Origin: a bacterium
GTDB taxonomy: Bacteria > Elusimicrobiota > Elusimicrobia > Elusimicrobiales > UBA9959
Length of the DNA stretch: 36,266 nucleotides
Assembly (NCBI GenBank): GCA_021847485.1
Contig: JAJZRA010000015.1
Location: forward strand, 1-36,266
Direction: 5' to 3'
The translations under genes and the position numbers were made by a program. Position 1 is the stretch's first letter. Each line of letters opens with the position of its first letter. Below the pieces are notes generated by a model. The model saw only the letters and a program-made list of their open reading frames with translations. It ran no database searches and was not told the origin of the DNA. This document shows positions 10,601 to 30,819 of the stretch, in pieces.

Positions 10601-10671
10601 AGTCCCTGAGGACGGTTCCCCCGGTCTTTCACGGGGCGGCGGACTTCATCGCCTCGGCTATATTATAGCAG

Positions 10672-11679: not shown

Positions 11680-12472
11680 CTTTTTTCTCCAGCAGTTTTT
11701 TGGATTTCAGTTTGGCCACTTCGTCGGCCAGGCGGGTGGCGCCGTCGCGCGGCTCGGCCTCGAGCACCGAGTTCAGCAGCCGCTCGAAGAGCTCCGGGTC
11801 CTGCGCGGCCACGGCGGCCATCCTGGCGTACAGGTACCGGTTCAGCAGGAAATTCTCTCCCGCGCCCTTCAGCGAGGCCTCGAAGTAGGTCCTGGCCTTG
11901 TCGGGGTCGCCGCCGAACAGCCGCGGGCGGATGGCGTAGTAGGCGCCCATCAGCGTCTGCGGGCCGTTGTAGTAGAAGGAGGGGTCCAGCTCCAGCAGGC
12001 GCCTGGCGGCCGGCTCTATGGCGGGCAGCTCGGCCACGGCCTCGGGCTTGTCGCGGTTGACGTTGATGTAGAGCGCTTTGCAGAAGGTGTCCCAGAAGAG
12101 CGGCGGCACGTCCTTGCGGCCGGCTTTTTCCGGCGTCCGTCCGTCCAGCGCCCGGGCCGCGTAGGCCTCGCCCTTGGCGTAGAACTCCGAAGCGCGGGCG
12201 GGGGCATCGTCCTCCAGGAACAGCAGCCCGTAGCCGCAGAAGCCCTGCGCGGCGTTGACGAGCAGCGACTTGTTGCCGGGGTCGCTGGCCAGCAGGATCT
12301 CCATCAGCTGCAGGTTGGCCGGCAGCGCCTCTTTAACGTACTGCACGTCGGACTGGCTGAAGACGGCGGGCAGGCCCTTGTCTACGACGCCGGCGGTGAC
12401 GCGGGCCGCCGTGCGGTTTAGCGAGCAGGCGCCGAGCGGCGTCAGCGCCAGCAGCAAAGCGAGCTTCTTCAT
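11666..12472 (-). CDS. tatT: TatT-type TPR lipoprotein of a TPAT TRAP system
   Basis: A 268-residue lipoprotein: lysine-rich start, hydrophobic core and lipobox LGAC with C16 as the lipidated residue. The mature part is all-helical with degenerate TPR units, and the family features VFSQSDVQYVKEALPANLQLMEILL, AAQGFCGYGLLFLED and RLFGGDPDKARTYFEASLKGAGENFL. In Treponema pallidum TatT forms a complex with the binding protein TatP, and tatP is the next gene here. The start at 12472 overlaps the malQ stop by four bases (ATGA). The longer upstream frame is a shadow of malQ. Confidence 0.85.
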   Translation of the reverse strand: MKKLALLLALTPLGACSLNRTAARVTAGVVDKGLPAVFSQSDVQYVKEALPANLQLMEILLASDPGNKSLLVNAAQGFCGYGLLFLEDDAPARASEFYAKGEAYAARALDGRTPEKAGRKDVPPLFWDTFCKALYINVNRDKPEAVAELPAIEPAARRLLELDPSFYYNGPQTLMGAYYAIRPRLFGGDPDKARTYFEASLKGAGENFLLNRYLYARMAAVAAQDPELFERLLNSVLEAEPRDGATRLADEVAKLKSKKLLEKKDELF

Positions 12473-14028
12473 GCGCGTTTCTCCCTGACCAGCGCCGAGA
12501 AGGCCTCGGCGGTGTCGGCGTGCTTCTTGGCGAAGTCCTCGGCGGGGGTGGGGAAGCGGTAGGTCCAGTTCTGGTCCCCCAGCGTGCCCGGCGTGTTGAC
12601 CCTGTCCTTCGTGCCGAAGATGTCCTGGATCGGCAGGATCACTATCCGCGAGCCGGCGCCGAGCAGCGAGCCCAGGGCCTTCTCGCGCGCCTTCGCGTAG
12701 AGCGGCGGCTTGGAATCCTCTCCGGAGACCAGCTTCCAGAACAGCTTCTTCTCCACCGGGTCCACGGTGTCCCACCAGTCGGCCAGCGGCTCGTTGTCGT
12801 GCGTGGAGGAGGTGGCCAGGGAGACGGGCGCGTAGGTGGCCGGGTCGGTGTAATTGCCGTCCTTGTTCTTCTCCCAGCGCATCACCTTGTAGCCGGGGAC
12901 GCACAGCTCCTGCAGCACCTCGCGGACGTAAGGCGGGATCACGCCCAGGTCCTCGGCCACGGGCAGCATCGGGCTGGCGGAGGCGACGGCCTCGAGGAAG
13001 CGCCGGCCGCGCAGCCGCTGGCCGTGCTCGTCCCTGATGTCGAAGTCCGGCTTCTGCGAGACGTCGCGCGGGATGATCCACGTGCGGAAGAAGCCGACCA
13101 TGTGGTCGATGCGGAACAGGTCGTAGAACTCGGAGGCCTTCTTCACCTTGGTGCGCCACCAGTCGAAATTGTTCTGCTCCACGGCGTGCCAGTTGTAGGC
13201 GGGCAGGCCCCAGCGCTGGCCGGTCTCGCTGAAGGCGTCCGGCGGCGCGCCGATCTCGCGGTCGATGTCGAACTCGCCCTGGCGGCTCCAGACGTCGGCG
13301 CTCTCCTGGTTGACCATGAACGGCAGGTCCCCCAGCAGCTTGATGCCCAGCTCCGAGGCGCGCCTGCGGGCCGCGGCCCACTGGCGGTGGATGGTCCACT
13401 GCAGGTACTTGAAGAACAGCACCTGGTTCTCCTCGCCGGCGTGCAGGCCGCGGAGGGCATCGTCGTGCCGGCGGCGCAGCGGCTCCTCCCAGTGGGTCCA
13501 CGAGGTCCAGTTGTGGGTGTCCTTGAGGCGGCGGAAGGCGGCGTAGTCCTCCAGCCAGCCGGCGTTGGCGCGGCAGAAGGCCCGGAACTCGGCGGCGAGG
13601 GGCGTGTCCTTGAGGACGTGGCGCTGGTGGAAGGCCGTGTAGATCTTCCAGAGCGCGGTGAACTTAAGATGCCGCACTTCGTTGTACATCACCGACTTGG
13701 CCGCGCGCAGCTGCCTGAGGCCGGCCTGGAAGCGGCGGGAATTCAGCTCTTCCAGGATCTCGGGGAAGTCCTTGAGCTCCGGGATGTCCTCCACGGCGAT
13801 GTAGATCGGGTCCAGCGCGAAGGCGGACAGCGCGGTGTACGGGCAGGAGACGCCGGGCGGCATCTCGTTGATGGGCAGGACCTGCAGCAGGTCGAGGTTC
13901 AGCGCTTTCATCGCGTCGAACCAGAGGGTCATGGCGCGGGTGTCGCCGATGCCCCAGTCCTTCTTGGAGCGCATCGAGAAGAGGGGGAACAGCGTGCCTG
14001 TGTGCTTCTTTTCCAGTAAAGGGTGCAT
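12469..14028 (-). CDS. malQ: 4-alpha-glucanotransferase (amylomaltase, GH77)
   Basis: A 519-residue GH77 enzyme that transfers alpha-1,4-glucan segments in glycogen, starch and maltodextrin metabolism. The catalytic nucleophile is D308 in FRIDHMVGF, the acid/base is E359 in AEDLG, and the third acidic residue is D411 in HDNEP. The length matches the short bacterial amylomaltases. The N-terminal MRSKKDWGIGDT and SCPYTALSAFALDPIYI are standard. Its stop overlaps the tatT start, so a cytoplasmic glucan enzyme heads an operon for a TRAP binding complex. Upstream lies palindromic element 3. Confidence 0.95.
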   Translation of the reverse strand: MHPLLEKKHTGTLFPLFSMRSKKDWGIGDTRAMTLWFDAMKALNLDLLQVLPINEMPPGVSCPYTALSAFALDPIYIAVEDIPELKDFPEILEELNSRRFQAGLRQLRAAKSVMYNEVRHLKFTALWKIYTAFHQRHVLKDTPLAAEFRAFCRANAGWLEDYAAFRRLKDTHNWTSWTHWEEPLRRRHDDALRGLHAGEENQVLFFKYLQWTIHRQWAAARRRASELGIKLLGDLPFMVNQESADVWSRQGEFDIDREIGAPPDAFSETGQRWGLPAYNWHAVEQNNFDWWRTKVKKASEFYDLFRIDHMVGFFRTWIIPRDVSQKPDFDIRDEHGQRLRGRRFLEAVASASPMLPVAEDLGVIPPYVREVLQELCVPGYKVMRWEKNKDGNYTDPATYAPVSLATSSTHDNEPLADWWDTVDPVEKKLFWKLVSGEDSKPPLYAKAREKALGSLLGAGSRIVILPIQDIFGTKDRVNTPGTLGDQNWTYRFPTPAEDFAKKHADTAEAFSALVREKRA

Positions 14029-17720: not shown

Positions 17721-17749
17721 TTGAAATTCCGGGTTTCGTCTGCTAAACT
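17721..17749 (+). promoter_or_regulatory. Sigma-70 type promoter of gene A
   Basis: TTGAAA (17721-17726), a 17-nt spacer and TAAACT (17744-17749), with TGC before the -10. The core GTTTCGTCTGCTA (17733-17745) recurs upstream of gene B with one change. The leader that follows holds the 14-bp palindrome TTCCCCGCGGGGAA (17779-17792). Confidence 0.65.
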
Positions 17750-17836
17750 CTAATTAGCGAATTACCTGTTTTTTCAGTTTCCCCGCGGGGAAGGGTGAAA
17801 AAGCAGGATTTCATGTCGTTTTGCCAGGGGGCAGCT

Positions 17837-19117
17837 ATGACGGACAACTCTAAAGCCAGGAAGAAAGCGCTGATCGTCAGCGTCCTGCTTTTCCTGGCGG
17901 CGGGCGGCGGCGTCTTCCTCTTCTTCGTCATACAGGGTTCCAACGACCTTACCGGCGCCAACAAGAAGAACTCCTTCACCTTCGGCGGGGCGGCCCGCGA
18001 CGCGGCCACCTCCTTCTTCAAGTTCGTGGGCTTCGAGGACGTGGATTCGATAGCCAAGGAAGGGCCTAAGGACAGGCCGCGCATCAAGGAGTACGAGGCT
18101 GCCGGAATGATCGACTCGGCAGGCGCTGGGGCCGCTTCTTCTTCCGGCGGGGAAATGCCTTGGGCTTCATCTGCCGGCGGCGGCCGTTCTGCTTCTCCTT
18201 CGTATGTGCCCAAGATGGCCGGCCGCGGCGGCTCGTCCGTGGGCGGCCTGGGCGGCGCCGGCACGCGGTCCTCGGCGGAGGTCTCGCGCTTCGGCGGCGG
18301 GGGGGACGCCGGTAATACCCGGGTCACCACCGCCAAGCCGCACGAGGCGGCGGACGGCATAAAGGGCAGCGGGACCCTGACGGCGCTGGCCAAGAGCCGC
18401 GCCATGCTGGGCGACGGCCTGCGCAGCGGCTCGGCCATGACGGCCAAGAGCAAGTGGGACGCCAGCTTCGGCGTGGGCCGCACCGGCGCCTCCGGCGGCG
18501 GCGAACTGGCCTACGGCAAGACCGGCCTGGTGAACCTCGACAAGATAAAGAAAGGCGAGGTGGACAACCTCAAGACCACCGACCCCAAGTCCCTTAAAGT
18601 GCCGGAGGTGGGGAAGCCTGAATATGCGGGCGACGGCAAAGGCGGGGACGGCAAGGGCGATAAGGAAAGCGCGGCAGATGCGATGAATAAGAGTATGGCC
18701 GCGTCCATGTTCGGCGCCATGGGACAGGGGCTAAGCAAGCCTCTTGTCAGCGATAAGGGCGGCGGGGACATGCGCAGTTTGTCCGAGGATCCCGCGGGGG
18801 GGTCTTCTCCCGGATTGAACGGGTCCTGCCAGGCGGGATCGACCGCTCCCTTGTGCAACCATGTGGACGGGATGAAGGTTAATACGGACACAAATATATC
18901 TTATAGACAGATAGGGACTACGGCGGATGGGCCGGTCGTGCAGATAACCTATTCCGGAAGCGGGCCCGGGATCACCCCGGAATATAAAAGTAACCCCGAC
19001 GTGCAGGTGGATTACCACGATACCGTTAACGCCGTTGTCGATCCCAAGACAGGGGAGATTAAAAAGATAATAGGTTGGTTCGACCCGATAGAGAAGCCTT
19101 CCCCCGGCGGCTCTTGA
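17837..19117 (+). CDS. Gene A: unknown bitopic membrane protein, Gly/Ser-rich
   Basis: Not recognised. It has 426 residues from the ATG at 17837, chosen because AGGGGG lies just upstream; an in-frame GTG at 17795 and an ATG at 17813 also exist. A basic N-tail (KARKK) precedes one membrane helix (about 10-32), so the rest should be outside the cytoplasm. Residues 95-160 are Gly/Ser-rich. A helical stretch, TLTALAKSRAMLGDGLRSGSAMTAKSKWDASFGVG (180-214), has counterparts in the neighbours. LKTTDPKSL (245-253) resembles LKKSDPNLS in B. AASMFGAMGQGLSKP (288-302) resembles MFGSLAGGLTG in B. The last 110 residues, with two Cys, are predicted beta-rich and show different codon use. It is first of six related genes. 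Confidence 0.75.
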   Translation: MTDNSKARKKALIVSVLLFLAAGGGVFLFFVIQGSNDLTGANKKNSFTFGGAARDAATSFFKFVGFEDVDSIAKEGPKDRPRIKEYEAAGMIDSAGAGAASSSGGEMPWASSAGGGRSASPSYVPKMAGRGGSSVGGLGGAGTRSSAEVSRFGGGGDAGNTRVTTAKPHEAADGIKGSGTLTALAKSRAMLGDGLRSGSAMTAKSKWDASFGVGRTGASGGGELAYGKTGLVNLDKIKKGEVDNLKTTDPKSLKVPEVGKPEYAGDGKGGDGKGDKESAADAMNKSMAASMFGAMGQGLSKPLVSDKGGGDMRSLSEDPAGGSSPGLNGSCQAGSTAPLCNHVDGMKVNTDTNISYRQIGTTADGPVVQITYSGSGPGITPEYKSNPDVQVDYHDTVNAVVDPKTGEIKKIIGWFDPIEKPSPGGS

Positions 19118-19142
19118 CAAGTCAAGTTTTGTCTGCTATAAC
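19114..19142 (+). promoter_or_regulatory. Consensus promoter of gene B, overlapping the gene A stop
   Basis: TTGACA (19114-19119), an exact 17-nt spacer and TATAAC (19137-19142). The gene A stop codon (19115-19117) lies inside the -35. GTTTTGTCTGCTA (19126-19138) matches the gene A promoter at 12 of 13 positions. Confidence 0.85.
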
Positions 19143-19161
19143 ATATTGAAAATTAGCTTTG

Positions 19162-19190
19162 CCTTGAACGCCCCGGGGGCTGTGTCAAGG
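19162..19190 (+). promoter_or_regulatory. Hairpin in the gene B leader
   Basis: CCTTGA (19162-19167) pairs with TCAAGG (19185-19190) around a GC-rich palindrome, in the 5' leader between the promoter and the ATG at 19242. It is not followed by a T-run, so it is more likely to stabilise the mRNA or bind a regulator than to terminate. Confidence 0.4.
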
Positions 19191-19241
19191 AAAGTTTAAA
19201 CTTATTTTATATCTTGAGGGCGGGGTTTTAAGGGCGGGGTT

Positions 19242-20195
19242 ATGATAAAGATCCAGAGCAGAAAGTCCAAAACGACGCAGTACGCGATAGGCGCGGCCGT
19301 CGCGGTCGTCATAATCGGGCTGTGGATATCTCTGCCGCTGATGAACAACTCCTCGATGGACGCCTCGGTGGCGGCCGGCAACCCGTTCCGCTCCAAGGTG
19401 GCGGACATCTCCATGCTGGGCAGCGATATCCCCTCCGAGGGCGGCGCTCCCGGCTCCCCGTTGAGCGGCGAGATGATCAACAATCCCGCCACCTCCGGGG
19501 AAGAGGTGGCCTCCGCGCTCTTCCAGTCCGGTTTAGAGGAGGATCAGCCTCTCGCAGACGCTACGGCCGACGCTTCGGCCTCCGCCCCTTCCGGCTCGGC
19601 CTCCGTTTCCGCTCCCGCTCCAGCCCCGGCCCCGTCCGGGATGGGCGCCAAGCTCAACATGATGCCCTCCATCACCGGGGGCAACGCCAATTCCATGACC
19701 GCTGGCGGCGTGCACAACAAGTTCTTCGGCTCCGCCGGCCAGAAGGCGGAGTTCGCTCCCAGCACCGGCCCGGACCTGAAGAAGCTGGCGTCCCCGCAGG
19801 AGAAGCGCTCCGCCCTGGTGGCCATGCTCAATAACGCCGCCGACAAGAGCGAGTTCGCCGCAAAGGCCGGCTCTATAGACGCCGCCAAGGGCGGCGCCAC
19901 CGCCGCCTTCACGAATTCGGCCAAAGCCACCGGGTCCGACCTGAACGAAAAGTTCGAGGCCCAGGCCAGCGCTTCCGGCCTGCAGCTGGGGCAGACCGCC
20001 CAGGACCTCAAGAAGAGCGATCCCAACCTCAGCAAGCATAAGGTCAACATCCCCGAGCCCAAGGTCGACAAGGCCAAGGAAGAGGATGAAGAGATGAAGA
20101 AAATGATCATCCAGATGATAATTCAGAACGTGCTGGGGCCGATGTTCGGTTCCCTGGCCGGCGGACTTACGGGCGCCACGCCCGCGGCGAAGTAA
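19242..20195 (+). CDS. Gene B: unknown bitopic membrane protein, Ala/Ser/Pro-rich
   Basis: Not recognised. 317 residues. A basic tail (MIKIQSRKSK) is followed by one membrane helix at about 14-34, then an acidic, Ala/Ser/Pro-rich linker (95-135). Next comes a helical region, KRSALVAMLNNAADKSEFAAKAG (188-210), leading into AAFTNSAKATGS. LKKSDPNLSKHK (256-267) is shared with gene C. The end is a charged helix (EEDEEMKK) and a hydrophobic helix MIIQMIIQNVLGPMFG (288-303), then SLAGGLTGATPAAK. It has its own strong promoter and a GGGCGGGG-type ribosome site. C follows 20 nt later, so B, C, D and probably E form one transcript. Confidence 0.75.
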   Translation: MIKIQSRKSKTTQYAIGAAVAVVIIGLWISLPLMNNSSMDASVAAGNPFRSKVADISMLGSDIPSEGGAPGSPLSGEMINNPATSGEEVASALFQSGLEEDQPLADATADASASAPSGSASVSAPAPAPAPSGMGAKLNMMPSITGGNANSMTAGGVHNKFFGSAGQKAEFAPSTGPDLKKLASPQEKRSALVAMLNNAADKSEFAAKAGSIDAAKGGATAAFTNSAKATGSDLNEKFEAQASASGLQLGQTAQDLKKSDPNLSKHKVNIPEPKVDKAKEEDEEMKKMIIQMIIQNVLGPMFGSLAGGLTGATPAAK

Positions 20196-20215
20196 GAGGA
20201 TATCGCGGAGGATAT

Positions 20216-21886
20216 ATGAACGACTATAACGAGAAGAAAGAAAAGAAGGGCGGCTTCCTTTCCGCTCTTTCCGGCCTGCTCCGCGGCGGCGGCTCGGCCG
20301 CGGGCGGCGCTTCGGGCTTCGGCGGCGCGGGCGGCGCGGCCGGCGGCCTGGGCGGCCTCTTCGCCACCAAGGCCGGCGTGGTCGGCCTGGTGCTGGGCGG
20401 CGCGACCATAGCCGCCGGCGTCGGCGTGGTCTACAACTTCATCGGGCCCTCCTCCAAGCCCGCTTATTCGCCCGAACTCTTCCAGAACAGCTACTACGAG
20501 GAAGAAGCCTCCAAGGCGGGCATGGAGCGCGCCCAGGCGCGCGACGCCTCCGCCGCTTCCGCTTCGACGCTGGATATGTTCAGGGAGCAGGCCAGGAAGG
20601 ACGGCCTGGGGCTGGGGGGCGAATCCGCTTCGGGCGAGGCCCCGGACGCCAACGCTAACGCTAACGCCTCCGCCGAGGCTCCTTCCGCGGACGGCGCGGC
20701 CCCCGGCGCCCCTGGCGCCGACGCAGCCGCTGGCGGCGGCGGTCCCAGGCTACAGGCGGCCGCGGGCTTCGGTTCCAAGGGCGGCGGCAGCAGCGGGACC
20801 TCTATCCCGCGCATGCAGGGCGGCGGCGGCCTTTCGGGCGGCATAGGCGGCCAGTTCGCCTCCGTTTACAGGCCCCCCGTGCAGAACACCGGCAAGCTTT
20901 CCAATATGTCCGCCTCGGCCGCGCGCGTGAAGAGCTCGCCGCGCTACGCCGTGCCTAACTTCAACAGGAAGGGCGCCTTCGGCCAGGCCAAGGCCGCCAA
21001 GAAGATGGGCGGCATGGCCAGGTACTCCAGCGACTCCGCCGCCAAGGGGCAGGCCGGCATACCGTTCGACTCTTCCGAGCAGGCCGGCAGCGGCGACGTG
21101 GGGACTCCCGCCACCGGCTCCGGCCTGGGCGGCGCGGGCGTCTCCAACGGGGCCAACCTCAAGAGCAGCGACCCCAACCTCAGCTCCAACGAGTCCACCC
21201 CTCCGAAGCCGCCGGAGCCGACCAACGTCTCGCCCTGGCAGAAGTGGGTGGACATCGCGATGTACGCCATGCTCGCCGCGGCGGCCCTGATCCTGATAAC
21301 CAAGATCCTGGCTAACGTGGGCAAAGCCAACCCGCTGGCGCTGAAAGCCGCGATGATAACCGCTTACCTGGCTATGGCGGCCGCCAGCATGGTGGTGCTC
21401 GCCGGTCTCATGCTGATGAGCAAGTTCGGCCAGAAGTGGTCCGGCATCATGTACATGATCACCGGCGCCGGCCTTATCTACGCTGCTTATCAGGCCCTGC
21501 AGGGGGTGGGAGAAGCCGCTACGAAAAACAAGGTCGACCTTGGCGGAATGGGCAAGGCATGTCCAAACTATGACGCTCCTAAAGCTTTCCAGGGGCAGTT
21601 GGCCGATGCCGGCGGCGACCCCACCAAGATGAGCGGGTTCGTAGATAGTTCGAGCGGCACTCCTAAGGTGGACCCTCCTGAAGGAGTGGTGAAAGCAGGT
21701 GACAATTATGCCATACAAGGCGCGGACGGAAAGCCCGGCACGCTTATAGACTCCAAAGGCGCTACTGTCCCTAACAGTGATGTTTCGCCTAAAGGGCAGA
21801 TATCCATCAACAATAAGCCTTATGGGAACATAGCGGACGGCAAGTTCACCGCCGAGGCGGCCGCTGAGGGGACTACCGGCCATTGA
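20216..21886 (+). CDS. Gene C: unknown multi-pass membrane protein, Gly/Ala-rich
   Basis: Not recognised. 556 residues. The N-terminus MNDYNEKKEKKGGFLSAL resembles that of gene D. Gly-rich 24-50; membrane helix about 52-76; STLDMF (117-122); Ala-rich 140-175; IPRMQ (197-201), also in F; helical KGAFGQAKAAKKMGGMARYSSDSAAKG (252-278); LKSSDPNLSSN (315-325), shared with B. NVSPW (337-341) leads into three hydrophobic helices: about 344-365, 377-402 and 408-427. The last 125 residues, with only C449, have weaker GC bias and look like a separate soluble domain. The ribosome site is GGAGGA. The Gly/Ala-rich linkers and shared motifs mark it as a paralogue of D. Confidence 0.8.
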   Translation: MNDYNEKKEKKGGFLSALSGLLRGGGSAAGGASGFGGAGGAAGGLGGLFATKAGVVGLVLGGATIAAGVGVVYNFIGPSSKPAYSPELFQNSYYEEEASKAGMERAQARDASAASASTLDMFREQARKDGLGLGGESASGEAPDANANANASAEAPSADGAAPGAPGADAAAGGGGPRLQAAAGFGSKGGGSSGTSIPRMQGGGGLSGGIGGQFASVYRPPVQNTGKLSNMSASAARVKSSPRYAVPNFNRKGAFGQAKAAKKMGGMARYSSDSAAKGQAGIPFDSSEQAGSGDVGTPATGSGLGGAGVSNGANLKSSDPNLSSNESTPPKPPEPTNVSPWQKWVDIAMYAMLAAAALILITKILANVGKANPLALKAAMITAYLAMAAASMVVLAGLMLMSKFGQKWSGIMYMITGAGLIYAAYQALQGVGEAATKNKVDLGGMGKACPNYDAPKAFQGQLADAGGDPTKMSGFVDSSSGTPKVDPPEGVVKAGDNYAIQGADGKPGTLIDSKGATVPNSDVSPKGQISINNKPYGNIADGKFTAEAAAEGTTGH

Positions 21887-21929
21887 TAGCGATGAGGTGA
21901 ACTTGTGAGCTTTAGTGTAGGGAGGCGTT

Positions 21930-23387
21930 ATGAACGACAATCTGCCTGACATAGGTTTTAAAGAGAAGAAGGAGAAAAAGCGGGGCGTGCTCGGCTGGCT
22001 GAAGAGCCGGCTGGGTATAGGCTCCCGCGGCGCCATGGGCGAGGCCGGCATCAACCCGTCCGTCATGAACGTCGGCAAGGCCGCCTTCGGCGGCGGCGCC
22101 AAGTTCGGCGCCTCCACCGGTATAGCCGGGCTGCTGGCCGGCAAGGCCAGTATCATAGCTACCGTGGCGGCGCTGGCCGTGGGCACCGGCGTGTACCTGG
22201 CCAACCAGGCCCCGTCGCCTTCCGGCGGCAACAGCGCCTTCACCTCGGGCAAGGTCCAGCAGCAGGGCGAATACGTGCCCGCCATCCTGCGCAGCCAGGC
22301 CGCCAACCAGGGCTCCTCGCTGGACATGTTCAAGGATACCAATAAGAACGCAGGTCTCTCCATGGAGGAGGACCTCTCCAAGAAGGCGGCCAAACCCGCG
22401 GAAGAGAGCCCGGCTCCTTCCCCGGAGGAGCAGGCTTCCCAGGACCAGGAGCAGCCCGCTCCCGGCCAGGGCGACATGGCCCAGGCCATGGCCGGCAAAC
22501 TGCAGGGCGCATCCATAGGGTCGCTGACCAGCTCGCTCGGCGGCGGCTCCAATAAGTTCTCTGCTATGGGGGGCTTCGGCAACAAGTTCAACCAGGGGCA
22601 GACCGGCGCCAAGACAGGCTTCTCCAATAACATCGGCTCCGGCTTCCAGGCCATGCCCAAGTTCGAGGCCCGCAAGGCCAAGCTCGGCGCCATGAGGGCC
22701 TCCTCCCGCCCCGTCTTCACCAAGGGCAGCGCCGGCAAGAAAGGCAAGTTCGGCACCGGCGCCTTCGCCCAGGCGAAAGGCATGAAGAAGGTGCAGCAGT
22801 CCTACGGCGGCAAGAACGCCGACACCCTGGCCGCTACCCAGAACGAGGCCTGGACCGGCTCCACGCCCGACGGCAGCGCCACCGGCGGCACCGGCGTCAG
22901 CGACGGCGGCGCCGGCATCATGAGCTCGCCCTCCCTAGATAACGCCGGCGGCAGTTCCGGCGGCGGCGGCGGCAGCAGCGCCGATGAGCCCGTAGTGCCG
23001 GAAGCGTCCGGTCCTGCCGACGTCAGCCCTTGGGCCTCGCTCATCAGCAACGCCATGATGATGCTGATGATAGCCTGTATGCTGATAGGCCTGGCCGCGC
23101 TGGCGGCTAAGCTGCCCGCCCCGTGGGGCAAGATAATCGCCATAGCCCTGATCGTCATAGCCATAGCGATGGCCGCCATGGCGCTGATGATGGCCGTCAA
23201 GCTCATGGGCACGCAGAAACTGATGGGCACCTTGTACATGGTAGGCTCCATTATGGTGATAGCCGGCGGCGTTATGGCCATAAGCGGCATAGACAAGTTC
23301 ATGGGCGGCAGCTACCTGACGCCGCTGTGGCTGGCGGCCGGCGCCGGCATCATCTCCATGATCGGCAGCATGCTGGGCGGTAAGTAG
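21930..23387 (+). CDS. Gene D: unknown multi-pass membrane protein, paralogue of C
   Basis: Not recognised. 485 residues. The basic start FKEKKEKKRGVLGWLKS is followed by a membrane helix at about 71-92 and SSLDMFKD (129-136), which is LDMF as in C. A Pro/Glu/Gln-rich linker spans 152-182. Then come Gly/Phe/Asn-rich repeats, GGFGNKFNQGQTGAKTGF (214-231), and helical GAFAQAKGMKKVQQSYGG (277-294). AWTGSTPDGSATGGTG (307-322) is close to a motif in E. DVSPW (364-368), like NVSPW of C, opens a block of four Met/Ala/Ile-rich helices running to the C-terminus (about 369-482). There are no soluble C-terminal domain and almost no Cys. A GGGAGG ribosome site precedes the ATG. Confidence 0.8.
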   Translation: MNDNLPDIGFKEKKEKKRGVLGWLKSRLGIGSRGAMGEAGINPSVMNVGKAAFGGGAKFGASTGIAGLLAGKASIIATVAALAVGTGVYLANQAPSPSGGNSAFTSGKVQQQGEYVPAILRSQAANQGSSLDMFKDTNKNAGLSMEEDLSKKAAKPAEESPAPSPEEQASQDQEQPAPGQGDMAQAMAGKLQGASIGSLTSSLGGGSNKFSAMGGFGNKFNQGQTGAKTGFSNNIGSGFQAMPKFEARKAKLGAMRASSRPVFTKGSAGKKGKFGTGAFAQAKGMKKVQQSYGGKNADTLAATQNEAWTGSTPDGSATGGTGVSDGGAGIMSSPSLDNAGGSSGGGGGSSADEPVVPEASGPADVSPWASLISNAMMMLMIACMLIGLAALAAKLPAPWGKIIAIALIVIAIAMAAMALMMAVKLMGTQKLMGTLYMVGSIMVIAGGVMAISGIDKFMGGSYLTPLWLAAGAGIISMIGSMLGGK

Positions 23388-23416
23388 CGGACGTAAGCGG
23401 CAACCGAGTTCCCGCT

Positions 23417-23441
23417 GCCGCCGGGTTATATCCCCGGCGGC
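23417..23441 (+). other. Hairpin between genes D and E
   Basis: GCCGCCGGG (23417-23425) pairs perfectly with CCCGGCGGC (23433-23441) around a 7-nt loop. There is no T-run, so it may be an RNA processing or stability element in a B-to-E transcript. The 142-nt gap 23388-23529 holds nothing else recognisable. Confidence 0.45.
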
Positions 23442-23529
23442 ATCGGGCGTAGTGGAGGAAGATTTTTTCGGAGCAGTAATGTGGTTAAGAGGTGCTTTCA
23501 CCCGCAGGCGGCGGCGCCGGGGAGGGTAT

Positions 23530-25149
23530 ATGGGCAGCAAATTCGTAGAAAAGCACAAACGCAAATCGATCCTGGCCGCCTTGCTCCTGATCTTCCAGGG
23601 CAGGGCCAAGTACGTCGCCATCCTGCTGGTGGTCGCCATCATGTCGGTGCCTTTCGTTATCTCCGGCGAGACGCTTGGCCGGATCATCGAGCTGCGCCCG
23701 GTGGCCTCCTTCCTGCGCTCGGTCGGCATGGGCAGCGTCGTCTCCGCCGTCAACCCGAAGTACTCCAACGACCTCATGCGCGCCGCCCTGGAGAAGGCCG
23801 CCGAGGACAGCAAGGCCGAATCCTTCTGGAACAAGTTCCTCAAGAGCGTCAACGCCACGCTGCCGCCCGCGGGCAGCCCGTCCTCCATGGCCATGATCCG
23901 CGGCGGCGCGGACCTCTTAGGCGAGCCCGAGCTGAAGGGCCCGGTGCCCAATAAGCCCGGCCAGGTCAAGGGCGTGGTGAACGAGCAGGAGCGCGAGCGC
24001 GGCGAAGCCCCCGAAGGGGTCGACCTGGAATCCATGCTCGCCGCCGGCCGGCCCGGCGGCGAGGGGGCCGGAGAAGGCTCCGGCCTCTACGGCGACCTGA
24101 TGGGCCAGAACCTCGCGGGGCGCTTCGAGGGCGGCGGCAGTTTCGGCTCCAATTCCCCTTACGTCGGCGGGGCGCTGTCGGGCGGCGGGCTTTCCGCGTC
24201 CGGCCGTTCTTCCGGCATGTTCAGCAGCGTCATGGACCAGGCTTCCGGAAAGGTGCCGGTGCCCGGCAAGCCGCAGAAGGTCAACACCAAGCGCATGGGC
24301 CGCGTCAGCGGCTTCACCTGGCGCAACGTCGGCTACAAGACGCAGAAGAACAAGATCGACGTGCAGATGGGCAACAAGAAGCCCATGTTCCAGCTGGCGC
24401 AGACCTTCGCGATGACGGCCTCGGCCTTCAAATCGCGCGACTCCGCGCCGGAATACCAGGCGGCCTACACCGGTTCGACCTACGACGGCAACGACGTGAA
24501 CGCCGAGGCTATCCAGACCGACGCCTCCGCCCCGGCGCTCCCGGACAGCTCCTATACCGGCGACCTGATGACCGGCGTGCAGGGCATGCAGGACGCCGCC
24601 CGGACCTGCTCCGACGCCCAGGGCACCCACGGCGCCAAGATGTCGGAGGACGGCAAGCTGATGGACGACACGGCCAAGACGCTGGGCAAGCCGCCCAAGT
24701 GCTGCAATCACGGCGCCGTGGACGCCTGGAACGGAAAGATAGACAGGATCATCTCGTATTGCAACGACTTCAACGTGCACGAGGCCCAGCTGGCCGCCGC
24801 CTGCCAGAACAAGAGCAGCCCGATGGACTGCAGCAGCTATAACGGCATGCATCAGCCTAAGTGCTCCAAATGGCGCTGCTGGCTCGGCATACTTGCCGCC
24901 CTTCTGATGATGCTTGCCGGCTTGCTGTTGCTGGGCACCGGCCTCGGCGTGGCCCTGCTGGCGGCCGGCATAGGCATGCTGGTCGCGCAGTTAGTCCCGG
25001 GCGTGCTGGGACAGATACTAGGCTTCGTGGCAGGTCTGATGATCCCCGGCCTGTTCTTCGCCAACGTGGCGGTATCCTTTATGGACAGGACGATAGCCGC
25101 CATAGTCTCCATAGGCAGCAATTCAGCCGGCGGCCAGGGCGGTGAATGA
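23530..25149 (+). CDS. Gene E: unknown membrane protein with Cys-rich region and C-terminal helices
   Basis: Not recognised. 539 residues from the ATG at 23530, which has GGAGGG five bases upstream; a longer GTG reading from 23452 adds an Arg-rich stretch with no ribosome site and is rejected. The basic N-terminus KHKRKS precedes a membrane helix at about 28-44. Gly/Ser-rich 175-230. Helical FQLAQTFAMTASAFKSRDSA (287-306) leads to YTGSTYDGND (313-322), like TGSTPDG in D. Eight Cys lie between 360 and 450 (C360, C391, C392, C411, C425, C434, C445, C450). They stop just before a hydrophobic block (451-530) of three or four helices with GLGVALLAAGIGMLVAQ. Disulfide bonding outside the cytoplasm is likely. 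Confidence 0.8.
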   Translation: MGSKFVEKHKRKSILAALLLIFQGRAKYVAILLVVAIMSVPFVISGETLGRIIELRPVASFLRSVGMGSVVSAVNPKYSNDLMRAALEKAAEDSKAESFWNKFLKSVNATLPPAGSPSSMAMIRGGADLLGEPELKGPVPNKPGQVKGVVNEQERERGEAPEGVDLESMLAAGRPGGEGAGEGSGLYGDLMGQNLAGRFEGGGSFGSNSPYVGGALSGGGLSASGRSSGMFSSVMDQASGKVPVPGKPQKVNTKRMGRVSGFTWRNVGYKTQKNKIDVQMGNKKPMFQLAQTFAMTASAFKSRDSAPEYQAAYTGSTYDGNDVNAEAIQTDASAPALPDSSYTGDLMTGVQGMQDAARTCSDAQGTHGAKMSEDGKLMDDTAKTLGKPPKCCNHGAVDAWNGKIDRIISYCNDFNVHEAQLAAACQNKSSPMDCSSYNGMHQPKCSKWRCWLGILAALLMMLAGLLLLGTGLGVALLAAGIGMLVAQLVPGVLGQILGFVAGLMIPGLFFANVAVSFMDRTIAAIVSIGSNSAGGQGGE

Positions 25150-25481
25150 CAGGTTTTTATTCGGTCCTTAAGCCCGCGGTTAAAGCCATGCAGGAGGGAG
25201 CAGGCGCGCCCGGTCGCCGGCTTGTGTCAGGCTTCTCGTGGTGCGGCGGCGCGGCCTGCGGCCCCTGCGGGAGCGTACAGGCGCTCCGGCTTTGCCGGCG
25301 GGATTTTTTATGCGGCGGCGGCTGGGCCTAAAGACCCAGAAATTTCGGGGACCAACGACACTTGGCCCCCGCGGCGGAATGAAGTAAATTATAGTCGGAG
25401 TGGTGCGACGCCGCGTCGGCGTATTTGTACGGATATATTGGGTATAATACATAGGTTAAACAGCAGGACCCGGAGGCAGTT
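25150..25481 (+). promoter_or_regulatory. 332-nt gap between E and F: terminator, hairpins and gene F promoter
   Basis: There is no credible gene here. After the candidate terminator there is a small hairpin CGACG-CCG-CGTCG (25406-25418) and a TATAAT (25443-25448) that should drive gene F. The -35 is poor. A GGAGG ribosome site (25472-25476) lies five bases before the gene F ATG. F is thus probably a separate transcript. Confidence 0.55.
25268..25309 (+). terminator. Possible terminator after gene E
   Basis: Two adjacent stem-loops, GGAGCG-TACAGG-CGCTCC (25270-25287) and CCGGC-TTT-GCCGG (25286-25298), are followed after five bases by six Ts (25304-25309). They lie about 120 nt after the gene E stop. 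The two stems share two bases, so only one can form fully at a time. Confidence 0.5.
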
Positions 25482-28400
25482 ATGAACTTCTACAACGAAG
25501 ACGAGAAGAAGGACGGGGCGGCCGGCGTGCCGCCTTTCAAGAAGACGGCCACCTTCGGCAGGGCCCCGCTTTTCTCCAGGACCGCGGGCGGCCTCATGGA
25601 ACGCCTTAAGAACCTTTCCCGCAAGGACATGGCCTTCGTCGGTATCGGCCTGAGCGTGCTGGTGATGGCGCCCGTCGCCGAGTACATGATGTCCAAGCCC
25701 TCCGCGGACAACCTGCTGACGCCCGGCTTCGGCTCCCGCGAAGGCTCGGCCGTCCCCGGCGGCGGCGTCTACGAGCCCGGCATTAACGCCCTCAGCCAGG
25801 GCTCGCCCGACGGCTCCGGCGAGGTCATCACCCCGCTTTCCTCGCGCGACCCGGCCTCGCTGATCCTCGGCTCGCAGCCCGCCCAGGCCGCCGCCCCGGC
25901 GCCGTACACGCCTCCGCCCACCACCTTCCGCGATTCCATGAAGGACGTGGCCCGCGAGTCGTTCTCGGCGGCCGCCAAGTCCGCGGGCGCGCCCACGCCC
26001 ATCCCCCGCATGCAGGCCGCGCTGCGCAGCTTCGGCTCGTTCTTCAGCGGCGGCGAGGGTACCCGCACGCAGGGCTCCATCGGCGGCGGCAAGATCCTGG
26101 AGGACGCCAAGTCCGCCTCCTCCAAGGCCGCCAAGCGCTCGATGGTGGGCCCGGTCGCCATGCCCGGCTATAAGGGAGTGGCCTCCAATACCCCCAACAG
26201 CTCCTCCAGGGACGCCTTCGAGAAGCTGCGCTCCGCGGCCGACAAGTCCGCCGGCAACTTCAACGGCGGCTCGGCCATCAGCTCGCTGGACAAGGCCGCG
26301 GCCGACGCCCCCCAGATAGGCAGCGGCGCCGGCGGCCTCGGCTACGGCCAGGACTCCGCCGCGACCACCAAGCCCTCCAACTCCAACAATAAGTACGAGC
26401 ACAACCGCTCCGGCGAGTCGCTCGAGGAGATGGCCGCCAAGCACCGCATGCAGAAGGCGCTCGAGTGGGAGGACTTCAAGAAGTACGAGATCCCCAAGCA
26501 GATCATCAACGCCATCGTAGAGGCCGTCGGCGGCGTAATGAAGGACCTGGTGGACGACAAGCTGCGCGGCATCCTGAACATGTATCCTGGTGCCTCATAC
26601 TGCTGGCAGCCGGCCGTCTGCCCCGACGGCGACTGCGCCGCTATGGTAAAGGCATATAAAAAGCGCGCCCCTGTGGACCTTTGCTACGACCCCGGTGCCC
26701 AGAAATTCGCCTGGGAGTCCGGTGGCAAGGATAAAACACAGGGCAGTCAGGTTAATTGTATCTGCGGTAAGGGTTCCGAACCGATAGGTAAGAAGCCATA
26801 CGAGCCCGGCGGCGCTCCTCCTCCCGACAACCCGCAAGTCGGCCCGGGCCCGGATAACCCGCAGGGCGGTGGCGGTGGCGGCGACGGGCATACCCCGGCC
26901 GCCGGTTCGCCGGAGGCCATCTCGCAGGACACCAACAAGCTCTTCGCCAAGTACGACGAGGTGCTCGGCCGCGTGATCGACAACGTGGTCTTCACCGAGA
27001 AGGCCCTCAACGATAACAAGAAGCCGGAAGAGGTCGAAGTCCAGGTGAAGGCTCTTGAGGACGTGGCTAAAGAAGCCGGCGGCGCCGCCAGCTCGGTCGT
27101 TCAGCCCACGCTGGCCAAGCTGGGCTCCGAGGCCAAGACCGCCCTTAGCCGGTACTTTAACAGGACCGACGCTATGGAGAAGAAGTACCGCGCGGCCAAG
27201 GCGGAGCACGATACTTACGTCAAGGCGGTCGCCGCTATCAAAGCCGATATAAAGAACCACACGCTGAAGATGAAGGATACCGTCCCGACCGCCAAGTCCG
27301 GAGAGCCTACGGCCGGGCGCAACAGCGAGTCGGAGATAAACACCAAGCCTATAGAGGAAATAATCGCCAAGTACGACCAGGGGATCACCGACAACCTGGG
27401 TACGGCCCGCGGCCAGATAGACTTCCATACCTACCGGTTCGGCGTCTTCTCGAGGCAGCTGGACCAGGTTACCGGTTCCATCGAGGGGCTGGTGCAGGCG
27501 CATAATACCGCTCTCGGGGCTATGAACTCGGCCCTGGCCGCGGCCGATACGCCCGCTTCCGAGCGTCTCGCCAAGGCTACCGGCAGGCCCGCGGTGGGCG
27601 GGAACGCCCCGGCCGCCACCGGCGACAAGACAATCGGCGCGGCCGTCGGGACTACCGTGAAGGGAGCTGCCGGCCAGGCGCTTAACGGTGACAACGCGGC
27701 CCCGTTGCAGCAGGCCGTGGCCTTGCGCGGCGTTAACTGGGACCTGCTGTGGCCCCAGAAAGAGGCCCGCAAGTTCGACAGCACCGCGGCCGCCGCCGAG
27801 GAGAAGAAACTGTGGGCCGCGTACCTGGAGAAGGTCAACGCCAAGCAGGAGGCCAATATCGCTCCTACCCACGACTTCGTGGCCAATGCCGCCCGCAGCG
27901 CGGCTATCCAGGGGGAAGTGGTCACCGTGGACTTCGGCAACCTGCAGGGCATAATAAATTCGGCCGTAGCCGACATGCGGATAGTCCAGCAGACCGTCCT
28001 TATGTCGGTGAACGCCTGCTACTTCGAGAACGCCGGCTGCTCGTCCGCCATAACTCCCTCCGGCTCTGCCGACGGCAACGCGACGGTGCTGATGGCCCAG
28101 GGGCTGGCCAACGGCGTTTATAAGGACTTCCACGCGGCGGACCAGAAGTATTCCCAGCTCAAGCCGGAGCAGAAAGCGGTCATATCTTCCGCCCACGGCA
28201 GCCTTCAGTCCGCGGCCGACCTGGTGGAGGAGAAGCAGCAGGCGCTGGATAAGCTGGTGAAGAGCAAGGCTCCGGCCGATCAGATAGCCAAGGCTACCGG
28301 CGAACTCGCGGGCGCCTCGAAGGAGTATACCAGGGTCCAGTCGGCTTACGACGCTTCCTATGACGCCGCCAGGAAGACCCTGACCGGGGCCCAGAGGTCC

Positions 28401-28658
28401 GCGTTGGCGGACTATCAGACCGTGCTCTCCTGCGACGACGCGGTGACCGGCTTCGTGCCGCACGGCTCCGGCATGTGCAGCAAGAGCCTGTCCACCCGCG
28501 TGGGCACCATCGGCAGCAGCGCCGACAGGGACTACGGCCTGATCATGAGCGACGACCCGGCCTCCGCTAACGCCGGCGCGCGCCTGGCCAACCAGAAAAA
28601 GACCGCCTGCACCTGGGCGTCCAAGTGCCTCAAGCAGCTGCCCGCCGGCTGTAAGTAA
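25482..28658 (+). CDS. Gene F: large unknown membrane-anchored protein with helical ectodomain
   Basis: Not recognised. 1058 residues. The N-terminus MNFYNEDEKKDG is basic further on (RLKNLSRKD); one membrane helix at about 49-69. A Gly/Ser/Pro-rich linker follows, with IPRMQ (174-178, as in C) and helical DAFEKLRSAADKSAGNFNGGSA (244-265). Then a charged helix (318-362) and a Cys patch (C374, C380, C385, C401, C426, C428), followed by a Pro/Gly hinge (440-470). From about 475 to the end it is mostly long helices with coiled-coil character, for example LVEEKQQALDKLVKSKAPADQIAKATGEL. Three Cys close the C-terminus (KTACTWASKCLKQLPAGCK). It is probably the large extracytoplasmic component of the A-F set. 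It ends in a strong terminator. Confidence 0.8.
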   Translation: MNFYNEDEKKDGAAGVPPFKKTATFGRAPLFSRTAGGLMERLKNLSRKDMAFVGIGLSVLVMAPVAEYMMSKPSADNLLTPGFGSREGSAVPGGGVYEPGINALSQGSPDGSGEVITPLSSRDPASLILGSQPAQAAAPAPYTPPPTTFRDSMKDVARESFSAAAKSAGAPTPIPRMQAALRSFGSFFSGGEGTRTQGSIGGGKILEDAKSASSKAAKRSMVGPVAMPGYKGVASNTPNSSSRDAFEKLRSAADKSAGNFNGGSAISSLDKAAADAPQIGSGAGGLGYGQDSAATTKPSNSNNKYEHNRSGESLEEMAAKHRMQKALEWEDFKKYEIPKQIINAIVEAVGGVMKDLVDDKLRGILNMYPGASYCWQPAVCPDGDCAAMVKAYKKRAPVDLCYDPGAQKFAWESGGKDKTQGSQVNCICGKGSEPIGKKPYEPGGAPPPDNPQVGPGPDNPQGGGGGGDGHTPAAGSPEAISQDTNKLFAKYDEVLGRVIDNVVFTEKALNDNKKPEEVEVQVKALEDVAKEAGGAASSVVQPTLAKLGSEAKTALSRYFNRTDAMEKKYRAAKAEHDTYVKAVAAIKADIKNHTLKMKDTVPTAKSGEPTAGRNSESEINTKPIEEIIAKYDQGITDNLGTARGQIDFHTYRFGVFSRQLDQVTGSIEGLVQAHNTALGAMNSALAAADTPASERLAKATGRPAVGGNAPAATGDKTIGAAVGTTVKGAAGQALNGDNAAPLQQAVALRGVNWDLLWPQKEARKFDSTAAAAEEKKLWAAYLEKVNAKQEANIAPTHDFVANAARSAAIQGEVVTVDFGNLQGIINSAVADMRIVQQTVLMSVNACYFENAGCSSAITPSGSADGNATVLMAQGLANGVYKDFHAADQKYSQLKPEQKAVISSAHGSLQSAADLVEEKQQALDKLVKSKAPADQIAKATGELAGASKEYTRVQSAYDASYDAARKTLTGAQRSALADYQTVLSCDDAVTGFVPHGSGMCSKSLSTRVGTIGSSADRDYGLIMSDDPASANAGARLANQKKTACTWASKCLKQLPAGCK

Positions 28659-28672
28659 CCGGCAGATCAGAG

Positions 28673-28712
28673 AAAAACCCCGCGGTCCGCAAGGCCGCGG
28701 GGTTTTGCTTTC
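28673..28712 (+). terminator. Strong intrinsic terminator after gene F
   Basis: AAAACCCCGCGG (28674-28685) pairs with CCGCGGGGTTTT (28695-28706), followed by GCTTTC. It begins 15 nt after the gene F stop. Confidence 0.92.
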
Positions 28713-28918: not shown

Positions 28919-29791
28919 ATGAAAAAGAGCATGCTTATGGTCGCGGCGTTCATCGCTTCGTGCTCTCTGGGCGCGAGCGCGCAAGAGATAAAGCCTGACT
29001 TCGAGGGCAGGGGCGCGTCCGCTCAGGAGATCAGCCTTAAAGAGACGGTGCAGGCGCAGGCCCCGGAGGTGATCACTGAAGGGATAAGGCCGGTAGCTCC
29101 TTCTTCCAGGGGCTATGCCAATAGTAATGTGTGCGAAACGTTCGTCTTCGATTCCCGTGATGGGGAAACGGTGCGCCGGGCGACGTATCTCAGCACGACT
29201 TTTCATTGGCGGGAATGCGACGAATATCATTATTGCCAAGATAATTCTCAAGACGAGAGTACGTACGTCGATCTTACCATCGGCCCCCGGCAGTTGCAGG
29301 CCAATGAAGAGGAGCGGATAGAGGTGTGCTACAACTTCCCCAAGGGAAAGCCCTCCTTCCGTATCCTCAAGAGCCCGTTCAAGTATACTTCCCGCGAGCG
29401 CGGCACCGGCTCGTATTTCCTCGAACTTACCCCTGTTGACCGCCTGCCGAAGGCCGTGGCTTCTCTCCGGGAGTTCAGCGTTTCGGCTCTCGGCTCGAAG
29501 AGCGGTGAGATCGGACGGTATTCCCCTCAATGGGACGAGAACGGGATGGGGTTTATCCCCTGCAAGGAGCAAGACCTGACCTGGCAGTCCACCGATACCG
29601 AATCCAAGATCATGAAAAGGGAAGGCAACGACATCTATGTCTGCGATTTCTCAGTCACCTGGGATTTCCGCTGGACCGGTTGTCGGGAGTCCAATCCGCA
29701 TACCAGCCCCGGTTGGTGTGCTTGCAAGGCCAAAGGCAGCAAGGGTACTCCTCAGAACACCGGTCGCTGTGCCTGGGAGGCCAGGGAATAA
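28919..29791 (+). CDS. Unknown secreted Cys-rich protein
   Basis: Not recognised. 290 residues. The signal sequence MKKSMLMVAAFIASCSLGASAQ has two readings: signal peptidase I after ASA, or lipidation at C15 (IASC fits a loose lipobox). After a short linker, the mature region from about residue 70 is beta-rich with paired Cys: CETFVFDSRDG, HWRECDEYHYC, IEVCYNFPKGK, FIPCKEQD, YVCDFSVTWDFRWTGC and PGWCACKAKG. This points to a disulfide-bonded periplasmic or surface domain. Codon use is less GC-biased in the first half. A GGGGG ribosome site precedes the ATG. It lies between two terminators, so it is transcribed alone. Confidence 0.7.
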   Translation: MKKSMLMVAAFIASCSLGASAQEIKPDFEGRGASAQEISLKETVQAQAPEVITEGIRPVAPSSRGYANSNVCETFVFDSRDGETVRRATYLSTTFHWRECDEYHYCQDNSQDESTYVDLTIGPRQLQANEEERIEVCYNFPKGKPSFRILKSPFKYTSRERGTGSYFLELTPVDRLPKAVASLREFSVSALGSKSGEIGRYSPQWDENGMGFIPCKEQDLTWQSTDTESKIMKREGNDIYVCDFSVTWDFRWTGCRESNPHTSPGWCACKAKGSKGTPQNTGRCAWEARE

Positions 29792-29955: not shown

Positions 29956-30819
29956 ATGAAAAAACTCATTGCATCCGTTACTCTGCTGGCGGGCTTAAGC
30001 CTCAACGCTTCCGCCTGGTACTTCGACGGCGGCCTGACCGGCACCACCGGCAAGGACTACAGCGGCTACAAGCTGAACCTGCGCGTCGGCGCGGACGACT
30101 TCGCCCTGGAGCCCACGCTGACCTCCTATAAATACGACACCGCGGCCCTCAAGAACAAGACCTACCGCACCTACGGCCTGCGCGGCGCGTGGGAGAAAGA
30201 GAAATACACGGTCGGAGCCGAGGCCGGTACTACCCCCGAGGTGAACGGCTATAAGAACATCTACGCCGGCGGCGACATCACCTTCTCGCTGATGCCCGGC
30301 ACCGGCGGCCATAGCCGCCTGGCCGGCCCCGGCGCGCACGCCGTCTCCGGCGGCGGCGAGGGCGTGGCCCGCATAGACGTGGGCGCCTCGCTGAAGCAGA
30401 TCCAGCACACCCAGGCCGTCACCGGCTCCTCCGACCTCAAGACCGCCCAGACCGAGGCCAGCCTGTTCGCCGGCGCCAAGGTGCTGATGCTCAACCTCTC
30501 GGCCTCTTACACCGGCTACTCCTACGGCGACGAGAAGGCCGTGCCGCAGGGCTTCATCCCCGGCCTGGACTTCGCCGTCATCGCCAAGCCGCGCTCCAGC
30601 GTGACCGCCCGCGTGGACATCCCGTCCACGATCCCGATGATCACGCCCTTCGCGGCCTACACGACCACCAAGTACAAGGGCGCCAAGGACAGCTCGGCCG
30701 TCACGATCGGCGGTTACGTCGACCTGAACATGGTCGTGGCCAACGTGGCCTACCAGAACTTCGACAACGGCAGCAGCAACAAGAGCTTCGTCTCCGTCGG
30801 CGCAGGCGTCAAGTTCTAA
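29956..30819 (+). CDS. Outer-membrane beta-barrel protein
   Basis: A 287-residue protein with a clear signal peptide (MKKLIASVTLLAGLSLNASA, then WYFDGG). The mature part alternates polar and hydrophobic residues in strands such as YKLNLRVGADDFALEPTLTSY, YTVGAEAG, ARIDVGASLKQIQ and SVTARVDIPS. It ends in VSVGAGVKF, and a C-terminal Phe is the usual barrel-assembly signal. It has no Cys. Family and ligand are unknown; it may be a small porin-like or adhesin-like barrel. A GGGGAG ribosome site precedes the ATG. Being next to the A-F block, it could be the outer-membrane partner of that system, but it is separated from it by terminators. Confidence 0.75.
   Translation: MKKLIASVTLLAGLSLNASAWYFDGGLTGTTGKDYSGYKLNLRVGADDFALEPTLTSYKYDTAALKNKTYRTYGLRGAWEKEKYTVGAEAGTTPEVNGYKNIYAGGDITFSLMPGTGGHSRLAGPGAHAVSGGGEGVARIDVGASLKQIQHTQAVTGSSDLKTAQTEASLFAGAKVLMLNLSASYTGYSYGDEKAVPQGFIPGLDFAVIAKPRSSVTARVDIPSTIPMITPFAAYTTTKYKGAKDSSAVTIGGYVDLNMVVANVAYQNFDNGSSNKSFVSVGAGVKF

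Follow-up and report, generated by a model that had tools for sequence, protein, structure and literature searches.

The six adjacent genes A to F of an uncultured Elusimicrobiota bacterium stand about an even chance of encoding an accessory module of a Tad/Flp (type IVc) pilus-type machine, one so far seen only in Elusimicrobiota. They lie on the 36,266-nucleotide stretch analysed here (contig JAJZRA010000015.1 of assembly GCA_021847485.1, our G000:C33; hereafter the window), which belongs to a genome of 2.2 Mb in 122 contigs, 83% complete. A link of the module to Tad is well supported, and that it serves the Tad machine is our firmest inference; the six genes appear to be a pilus add-on because, in distant relatives, members of the gene set sit behind pilus genes. 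Tad pili are widespread and take part in adhesion, sensing and, in predators, killing, while little is known of their lineage-specific modifications. If our reading is right, the module would be a multi-protein, lineage-restricted extension of Tad built of mostly predicted-disordered, low-complexity membrane proteins with nearly invariant segments, a case on which to test the idea of disordered scaffolds in bacterial envelope machines, and an initial clue to the function of several gene families without known relatives in a phylum with few cultures. The genes and the parts of D discussed below are:

A, 17837..19117 (+): 426 amino acids from the ATG at 17837, 440 from the GTG at 17795
B, 19242..20195 (+): 317 amino acids, one N-terminal membrane helix
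C, 20216..21886 (+): 556 amino acids, Gly/Ala-rich middle, paralogue of D
D, 21930..23387 (+): 485 amino acids, paralogue of C
Membrane helix of D, residues 73-93, 22146..22208 (+): from AlphaFold (low confidence here) and hydropathy
C-terminal helical bundle of D, four long helices, residues 369-483, 23034..23378 (+): from AlphaFold
E, 23530..25149 (+): 539 amino acids from the ATG at 23530, 565 from the GTG at 23452
F, 25482..28658 (+): 1058 amino acids, one N-terminal helix

The evidence for a connection to Tad comes mainly from gene neighbourhoods outside the window's own family (f1; f2, f14 and f15 are other families, and G and L numbers denote genomes and loci). Our phylum-wide profile searches covered 340 Elusimicrobiota genomes for D and 334 for F, TadG-like and FtsH-like proteins. 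D was found in 79 of the 340, many of them outside f1 and often with several copies, and B-, C-, D-, E- and F-like genes co-occur around the D matches. At many of these loci, TadG-like, TadE-like and FtsH-like genes precede the cluster members, with a Tad locus before those at some; in the distant families the cluster members lie, on the same strand, downstream of a Tad locus or only of its TadG-like/TadE-like end. The order RcpC, secretin, TadZA, TadB, TadC, TPR protein, regulators, TadG-like, TadE-like, FtsH-like and then cluster members recurs in G214, G230, G233 and G215. Pfam identifies, in G233, a T2SSE protein with an N-terminal CbiA/ParA-like domain (a TadZ-TadA fusion, here TadZA), two T2SSF proteins, a secretin, RcpC and an AAA protein with a peptidase M41 domain, the Flp-like and TadE-like matches falling below the Pfam cut-off. 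A Tad context of ATPase, platform proteins, secretin and RcpC also accompanies the cluster members of G203, and in G112 the part in view, ATPase and platform proteins, agrees with it.

Gene calls outside the window were made with simple scripts, so the distant gene sets are approximate. By profile assignment, the members behind the Tad locus are B, C, D and F in G214, B, D and F in G230, and D and F in G233; G215 has only D on the Tad contig and F on another. These assignments exclude E- and B-like open reading frames (ORFs) seen by eye in G214 and G233, which score below the profile threshold. Behind TadG-like genes we find C, D, E and F in G195 and G200, and C, E and F in G192. The fullest set (B, C, three D, a second C, E and F) follows TadG-like in G189, a genome with its TadZA on a separate contig, and a B-like gene follows the FtsH-like gene in G189, G214 and G230. 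An f2 genome of 2.2 Mb (G112) carries TadZA, TadB, TadC, TadG-like, TadE-like, B, C, E and F contiguously, without an FtsH-like gene. TadZA and F share a contig, some 24-41 kilobases (kb) apart, in 8 of the 53 F-positive genomes outside f1 by a tally made by eye (G112, G192, G195, G200, G203, G214, G230 and G233); measured distances are 25.5 kb in G233, 29.3 in G112, 32.3 in G214, 38.8 in G230 and 41.4 in G203. TadG-like and F share one in 16 of 49 genomes outside f1 with both places listed, and then always within about 28 kb; these linkage counts use the best place per genome only and omit G187, for which the TadG place is unlisted.

At the level of whole genomes, F and Tad genes also go together. 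The TadG-like profile matches 197 of the 334 genomes and the F profile 107, with no F match outside the class, and 99 of the 107 F-positive genomes carry TadG-like (the exceptions being G007, G020, G126, G134, G139, G178, G227 and G231); outside f1 the figure is 50 of 53. The Tad ATPase TadZA is present in 104 of the 107 (16/16, 78/80 and 10/11 in three batches), counting a partial match (1e-68) in G186, and is missing from G024, G137 and G134, the last being the only F-positive genome that lacks both TadG-like and TadZA. Conversely, 15 genomes of a 45-genome TadZA batch have no TadZA, and 14 of these have no F.

The window's genome has a Tad locus of its own, on contigs C115 and C102, with two Flp-like pilins, TadE-like, RcpC, secretin, TadZA, TadB, TadC, regulators, TadG-like, a further TadE-like, FtsH-like and a single-helix protein that we call A2. 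Its TadZA is 60% identical to that of G230; the names of the genes other than TadZA and FtsH-like come from inspection by eye and from similarity to the G233 set. The A2 family profile-matches A and B far above shuffled controls, and A2 follows TadE-like in three f1 genomes (L203-L205) without an FtsH-like gene there. A relative of A and B sits inside the Tad locus of the window's own family.

Several observations weigh against reading A to F as a Tad module. In f1 the cluster stands apart from the Tad locus, with a flavodiiron-type gene to one side and dnaX-recR-comEC to the other. Of 49 f1 genomes, 48 carry TadG-like and F on separate contigs; the exception, G010, has them about 49 kb apart. 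TadZA and F are also on different contigs in many distant genomes, and in several f14 and f15 genomes (for example G184, G189, G190 and G219) TadG-like and F stand together with TadZA on another contig. Most f2 genomes carry TadG-like, and 10 of 10 tested carry TadZA, but F occurs only in G111 and G112; since Tad is present in f2 mostly without F, the module must be dispensable for Tad. We infer that f2 is mainly a gut lineage. No profile of A to F resembles a Tad component: in hhalign comparisons of A, A2 and B to F with 11 profiles (TadZA, TadB, TadC, TadG, TadE, RcpC, secretin and Flp, and the FtsH-like, TPR and porin-like neighbours), the best probability was 1.6%. The FtsH-like neighbour occurs without F in genomes outside the class (perhaps Endomicrobia) and, at E<=1e-130, was missed in several F-bearing f1 genera. 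TadG-like itself was named by eye and by position, with no Pfam or NCBIfam match; two of the F-positive genomes (G199 and G205) rest on short, weak matches; and the genomes are related and mostly drafts, so that the counts are not independent events.

Within the window's genus the cluster recurs in a fixed gene order. Strong matches to D occur in 20 of 24 other same-genus genomes and a weak one in a 21st, and matches to F in 22 of the 24, as against none for either in 16 f2 genomes. Conserved co-occurrence in relatives had been set as a test beforehand, and the 20 same-genus loci fetched from 20 genomes by their D match bear it out: 17 have A to F complete, in the same order and on one strand, and the other three (L064, L076 and L080) are interrupted by contig ends. 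The orthologues are 34-72% identical to the window proteins with gene order kept. An extra ORF in L063 and L076 is a copy of C, and three loci (L062, L067 and L074) have an extra gene between D and E that is unrelated to A to F by profile comparison and by eye looks like a B12-binding radical SAM-like protein. Partial B of L064, partial F of L062, L074, L085 and L089, and duplicate or partial copies of the neighbouring gene H of L065, L067 and L069 were dropped before alignment, and the F alignment (A11) comprises 12 chosen sequences.

The second test set beforehand, the absence of any described family, also turned out as the earlier note had proposed: none of A to F matches Pfam, NCBIfam or PHROGs above curated cut-offs, the only traces being weak sub-cut-off matches for A, D and E in Pfam or NCBIfam and nothing at all in PHROGs. 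Searches of PDB sequences with the D, E and F profiles returned only chance or generic coiled-coil matches, the latter to the second half of F. Foldseek searches with the D and E models, both mostly of low confidence, gave no PDB match at E<=1e-3. Relatives of D were found neither in viral contigs, by a pattern scan, nor in plasmids. A pattern-based scan with D of 84,980 genomes returned 33 loci, of which 29 carry Elusimicrobia-type titles and four are titled only "bacterium"; on this one scan, A to F have so far been seen only in Elusimicrobiota.

In anatomy, reading frames and hydropathy agree with the initial description of six adjacent same-strand genes that each encode an N-terminal membrane helix, and composition and hydropathy agree with a Gly/Ala/Ser-rich region in all six (33-43% Gly+Ala+Ser in each) and a multi-helix C-terminal block in C, D and E. 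By hydropathy each protein has a single N-terminal hydrophobic region, which in E (residues 40-76) could by its length hold more than one helix, and only C, D and E have additional C-terminal ones. A consists of a short basic N-tail, one membrane helix, a Gly/Ser-rich region conserved up to about residue 260 (numbered from the GTG) and a variable C-terminus. The hydrophobic region of C spans about residues 48-76, and its C-terminal helices begin at about 343. The low-complexity part is highly conserved, and the C-termini of A, C, D and F are less so; nearly invariant segments lie at residues 66-97 of B (same-genus alignment) and 99-130 of F. F is conserved and Ser/Ala/Gly-rich over residues 1-340 and variable in its second half. 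The ATG codons at 17837 (A) and 23530 (E) are the likely starts, since conservation begins there. The AlphaFold model of D, built from 21 sequences, has a mean predicted local distance difference test score (pLDDT) of 51.4, with a low-confidence and probably disordered middle, ten-residue blocks of mean pLDDT 85-93 over residues 371-450 and later blocks of 57-71. That of E, built from 20 sequences, is similar (mean pLDDT 51.8, with a low-confidence middle), and a confident helical region at about residues 370-500 (numbered from 23479) with cysteines conserved in the alignment leads into the C-terminal membrane helices.

That the six proteins are all diverged paralogues, as the earlier note had it, is only partly borne out, and the picture changes with the depth of the alignments. 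With genus-only alignments, hhalign singles out only C-D (100%, E 1e-40) and B-C (93.7%); C and D are certain paralogues at the sequence level, B shares a motif with C, and the rest link up only once distant members are added. In these extended alignments, compared with ten controls per pair (one reversed and nine block-shuffled), 9 of 21 pairs, A2 included, beat the best control by more than 15 score units: A-A2 (79 against 23), A-F (84 against 33), A2-B (84 against 24), B-C (87 against 27), C-D (377 against 95), C-E (66 against 22.5), B-D (51 against 27), D-E (49 against 23.5) and A-B (44 against 26). The distant ORFs were allotted to their best-scoring profile, a procedure that can mix families and inflate profile-profile scores, so some mixing in the extended alignments is possible. 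B-F (39.5 against 30.8), A-C (36.5 against 26.5) and A2-C (32.7 against 25.7) are marginal, and the remaining pairs, among them A-D, A-E, B-E, C-F, D-F and E-F, stay at or near chance in the extended comparison. The numbers of 4-, 5- and 6-letter words common to A to F (178, 25 and 3) fall within the maxima of 200 block shuffles (197, 28 and 7), the 5-letter count of 25 lying above the shuffle mean (14.5, standard deviation 3.9).

The short motifs proposed to link the proteins fared unequally, and we reject the full list as shared signatures. LDMF is well conserved (18/21 C and 17/21 D), as is the loose form LKxxDPxL (11/19 B and 19/21 C) of the LKxSDPNLS string at B256 and C315, the exact string being present in 1/19 B and 1/21 C. 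IPRMQ (11/21 C and 8/17 F) and (N/D)VSPW (5/21 C and 12/21 D) are partly conserved. TGSTxDG (1/21 D and 5/20 E) and MFGxxxxGL (1/19 A and 1/19 B) are hardly conserved and look like chance. The N-terminal tails show two further patterns, which are suggestive only because they were chosen after the sequences had been read: a basic cluster ahead of GG in 22/40 C (shuffle mean 2.0), 18/45 D (5.3) and 5/26 B (0.4), and a PxI(P)xLK-like string in 21/45 D (1.8) and 14/37 F (2.9). Both are largely absent from A (0/19 each) and E (2 and 1 of 35).

Taken together with the Tad linkage, this anatomy points to a possible mode of action. The N-terminal helix of each protein is predicted to anchor it, followed by a long, mostly disordered Gly/Ala/Ser-rich stretch that we take to be periplasmic; C, D and E would return to the membrane through their C-terminal helices, and the second half of F is coiled-coil-like. 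The proteins may form an inner-membrane platform around the Tad motor, with the conserved short segments of the arms serving as docking points across the periplasm, and such a platform could anchor or gate the filament, or set its location, between inner membrane and secretin. A scaffold is the role favoured from the anatomy, yet it is one among several with which that anatomy is compatible. The earlier picture of an inner-membrane complex with extended ectodomains, perhaps serving secretion, adhesion or a surface appendage, fits the D model and the Tad linkage, but the idea that the six genes make a machine on their own finds no support; the genome encodes a motor, a secretin and pilins at other places. 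A more ambitious version, in which A to F make an envelope-spanning nanomachine whose disordered-arm inner-membrane assembly couples to a Tad motor and converts it from a pilus into something else, such as a device for contact-dependent delivery or sensing that has the giant proteins encoded beside the distant loci (described below) as effectors or adhesins, seems to us unlikely.

A to F might instead constitute a separate envelope system that in f1 is independent of Tad, such as a membrane-organising or cell-surface scaffold, the Tad neighbourhood elsewhere being historical. The position of the f1 cluster away from Tad, with its own conserved neighbour H, would suit this, as would the presence of Tad without the module in most f2 genomes and the separation from TadZA of the cluster with TadG-like in some f14 and f15 genomes. 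The retention of TadZA in nearly all F-positive genomes and the presence of A2 within the f1 Tad locus argue the other way, and we regard such independence as rather improbable. The proteins could also be exported by Tad as cargo or surface parts (tip, sheath or matrix), a cytoplasmic factor recognising the basic N-tails and the arms ending up on the filament or the cell surface. The N-tail patterns common to C and D and to D and F would fit such recognition, distant genomes differ in how many C/D-like genes they carry, and, in the part of PMC12075869 used here, Tad tips are described as customised by extra proteins. However, a prepilin-like leader (short, with a final G, and preceding a hydrophobic helix that has E at position 5) was not seen by eye in any of the six window proteins, and the C-terminal membrane helices of C, D and E would hold these in the inner membrane; we think export improbable on balance.

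Two further readings start from neighbouring genes, and both are less probable still. In the window and its relatives, comEC comes after F, H, dnaX and recR, which would place A to F and the Tad filament in a DNA-uptake apparatus feeding the ComEC encoded nearby; dnaX-recR, however, is a common gene pair, comEC was not noticed at the distant Tad-linked loci, though no search was aimed at it there, and genomes outside the class give no F match. A Tad-like locus has been proposed to allow DNA uptake in Endomicrobium (PMC8809381, as far as the excerpt goes), and even so we consider this highly improbable for A to F. The poorest prospects belong to the idea that A to F are membrane proteins held and turned over by the adjacent FtsH-like AAA-M41 protease. 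An FtsH-like gene adjoins the cluster in many distant loci, where TadE-like, FtsH-like and then B or C are adjacent, and the HEAGH and AAA motifs are invariant in five aligned FtsH-like sequences. Nevertheless, the profile matches 170 of 334 genomes at E<=1e-130, and at that threshold the gene is absent from several F-bearing f1 genera and present without F outside the class; we therefore dropped the protease as a defining partner. The FtsH-like protease is a neighbour, not a relative, of A to F, and neither necessary for nor specific to the module.

With these alternatives weighed, the accessory-module reading can be set beside known systems. We found no description of an A to F module in the literature searched and, to our knowledge, no Tad locus has been described with a protein set like it. 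The likeness to Tad/Flp systems is one of position, cluster members lying behind RcpC, secretin, TadZA, TadB, TadC, TadG-like and TadE-like genes in distant relatives, and the difference one of content, as A to F match no Tad component. Tad systems are reported in Elusimicrobia (PMC6668835, in the part consulted), and Tad-like regions are mentioned for Endomicrobium and Elusimicrobium minutum in the portion of PMC8809381 that we used. Another point of comparison is Kil of Myxococcus, a Tad-like predation pilus with interchangeable tips, which shows that Tad pili acquire lineage-specific tips (PMC12075869, in the passages available). As in Kil, going by those same passages, a Tad machine would here be enlarged by lineage-restricted extra proteins in several paralogous sets. 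Compared by description only, the tips of Kil are minor pilins of the TadE/F/G-like kind, which have prepilin leaders and heads of beta strands (PMC12075869, same passages), whereas A to F have no such leader by eye, are largely of low confidence in the two models, and in some cases carry C-terminal membrane helices.

The surroundings of the cluster in the window and its relatives are a Mur ligase gene and the flavodiiron-type gene (ODP) upstream, and H, dnaX, recR, comEC and gltX downstream where the fetched stretch extends that far. One conserved neighbour is:

H, 29956..30819 (+): 287 amino acids, no Pfam match, kept downstream of F in the window's family

By eye, H looks like a secreted small outer-membrane barrel. 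Directly after F, and before H, the window has a 2dG-II class purine riboswitch (RF03165, 28789-28859, plus strand, 87.1 bits against a gathering threshold of 60), upstream of a 290-residue protein (28919-29791) that looks secreted, contains Cys and has no Pfam match; among the fetched same-genus loci, a relative of this gene occurs only in L082. One relative encodes between F and H a repeat protein of tandem Cys/Gly units, CxQSQDGxMVxCGG (L072:15687-16454).

Other features of these genomes lie further from the cluster genes. Two genomes outside the class (L215 and L216), perhaps Endomicrobia, encode a short FtsH-like AAA-M41 protein with no Tad-profile match within the surrounding 20 kb, which suggests that this protein has a separate role. 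Several genomes have giant ORFs of about 2,400-4,700 amino acids, either close to the Tad locus or downstream of F (L194:11600-19900, L197 from 11745, L200 from 5659, L196 from 1, L161:12777-19901 and L172:5324-13957); when three giant proteins and one of 870 amino acids were searched, one giant had a bacterial Ig-like match just above the cut-off, one protein had a sub-threshold match and two had none. Elsewhere in the window, a fluoride riboswitch (RF01734, 39.4 bits, 10583-10662, minus strand) lies upstream of a minus-strand gene (9219-10352/10541) whose product, judged by eye, resembles a membrane transporter or antiporter, and a TRAP transporter (DctM) with a TAtT-type TRAP-associated protein is encoded at 2896-4655 and 10672-13501 (minus strand), its parts split by other genes.

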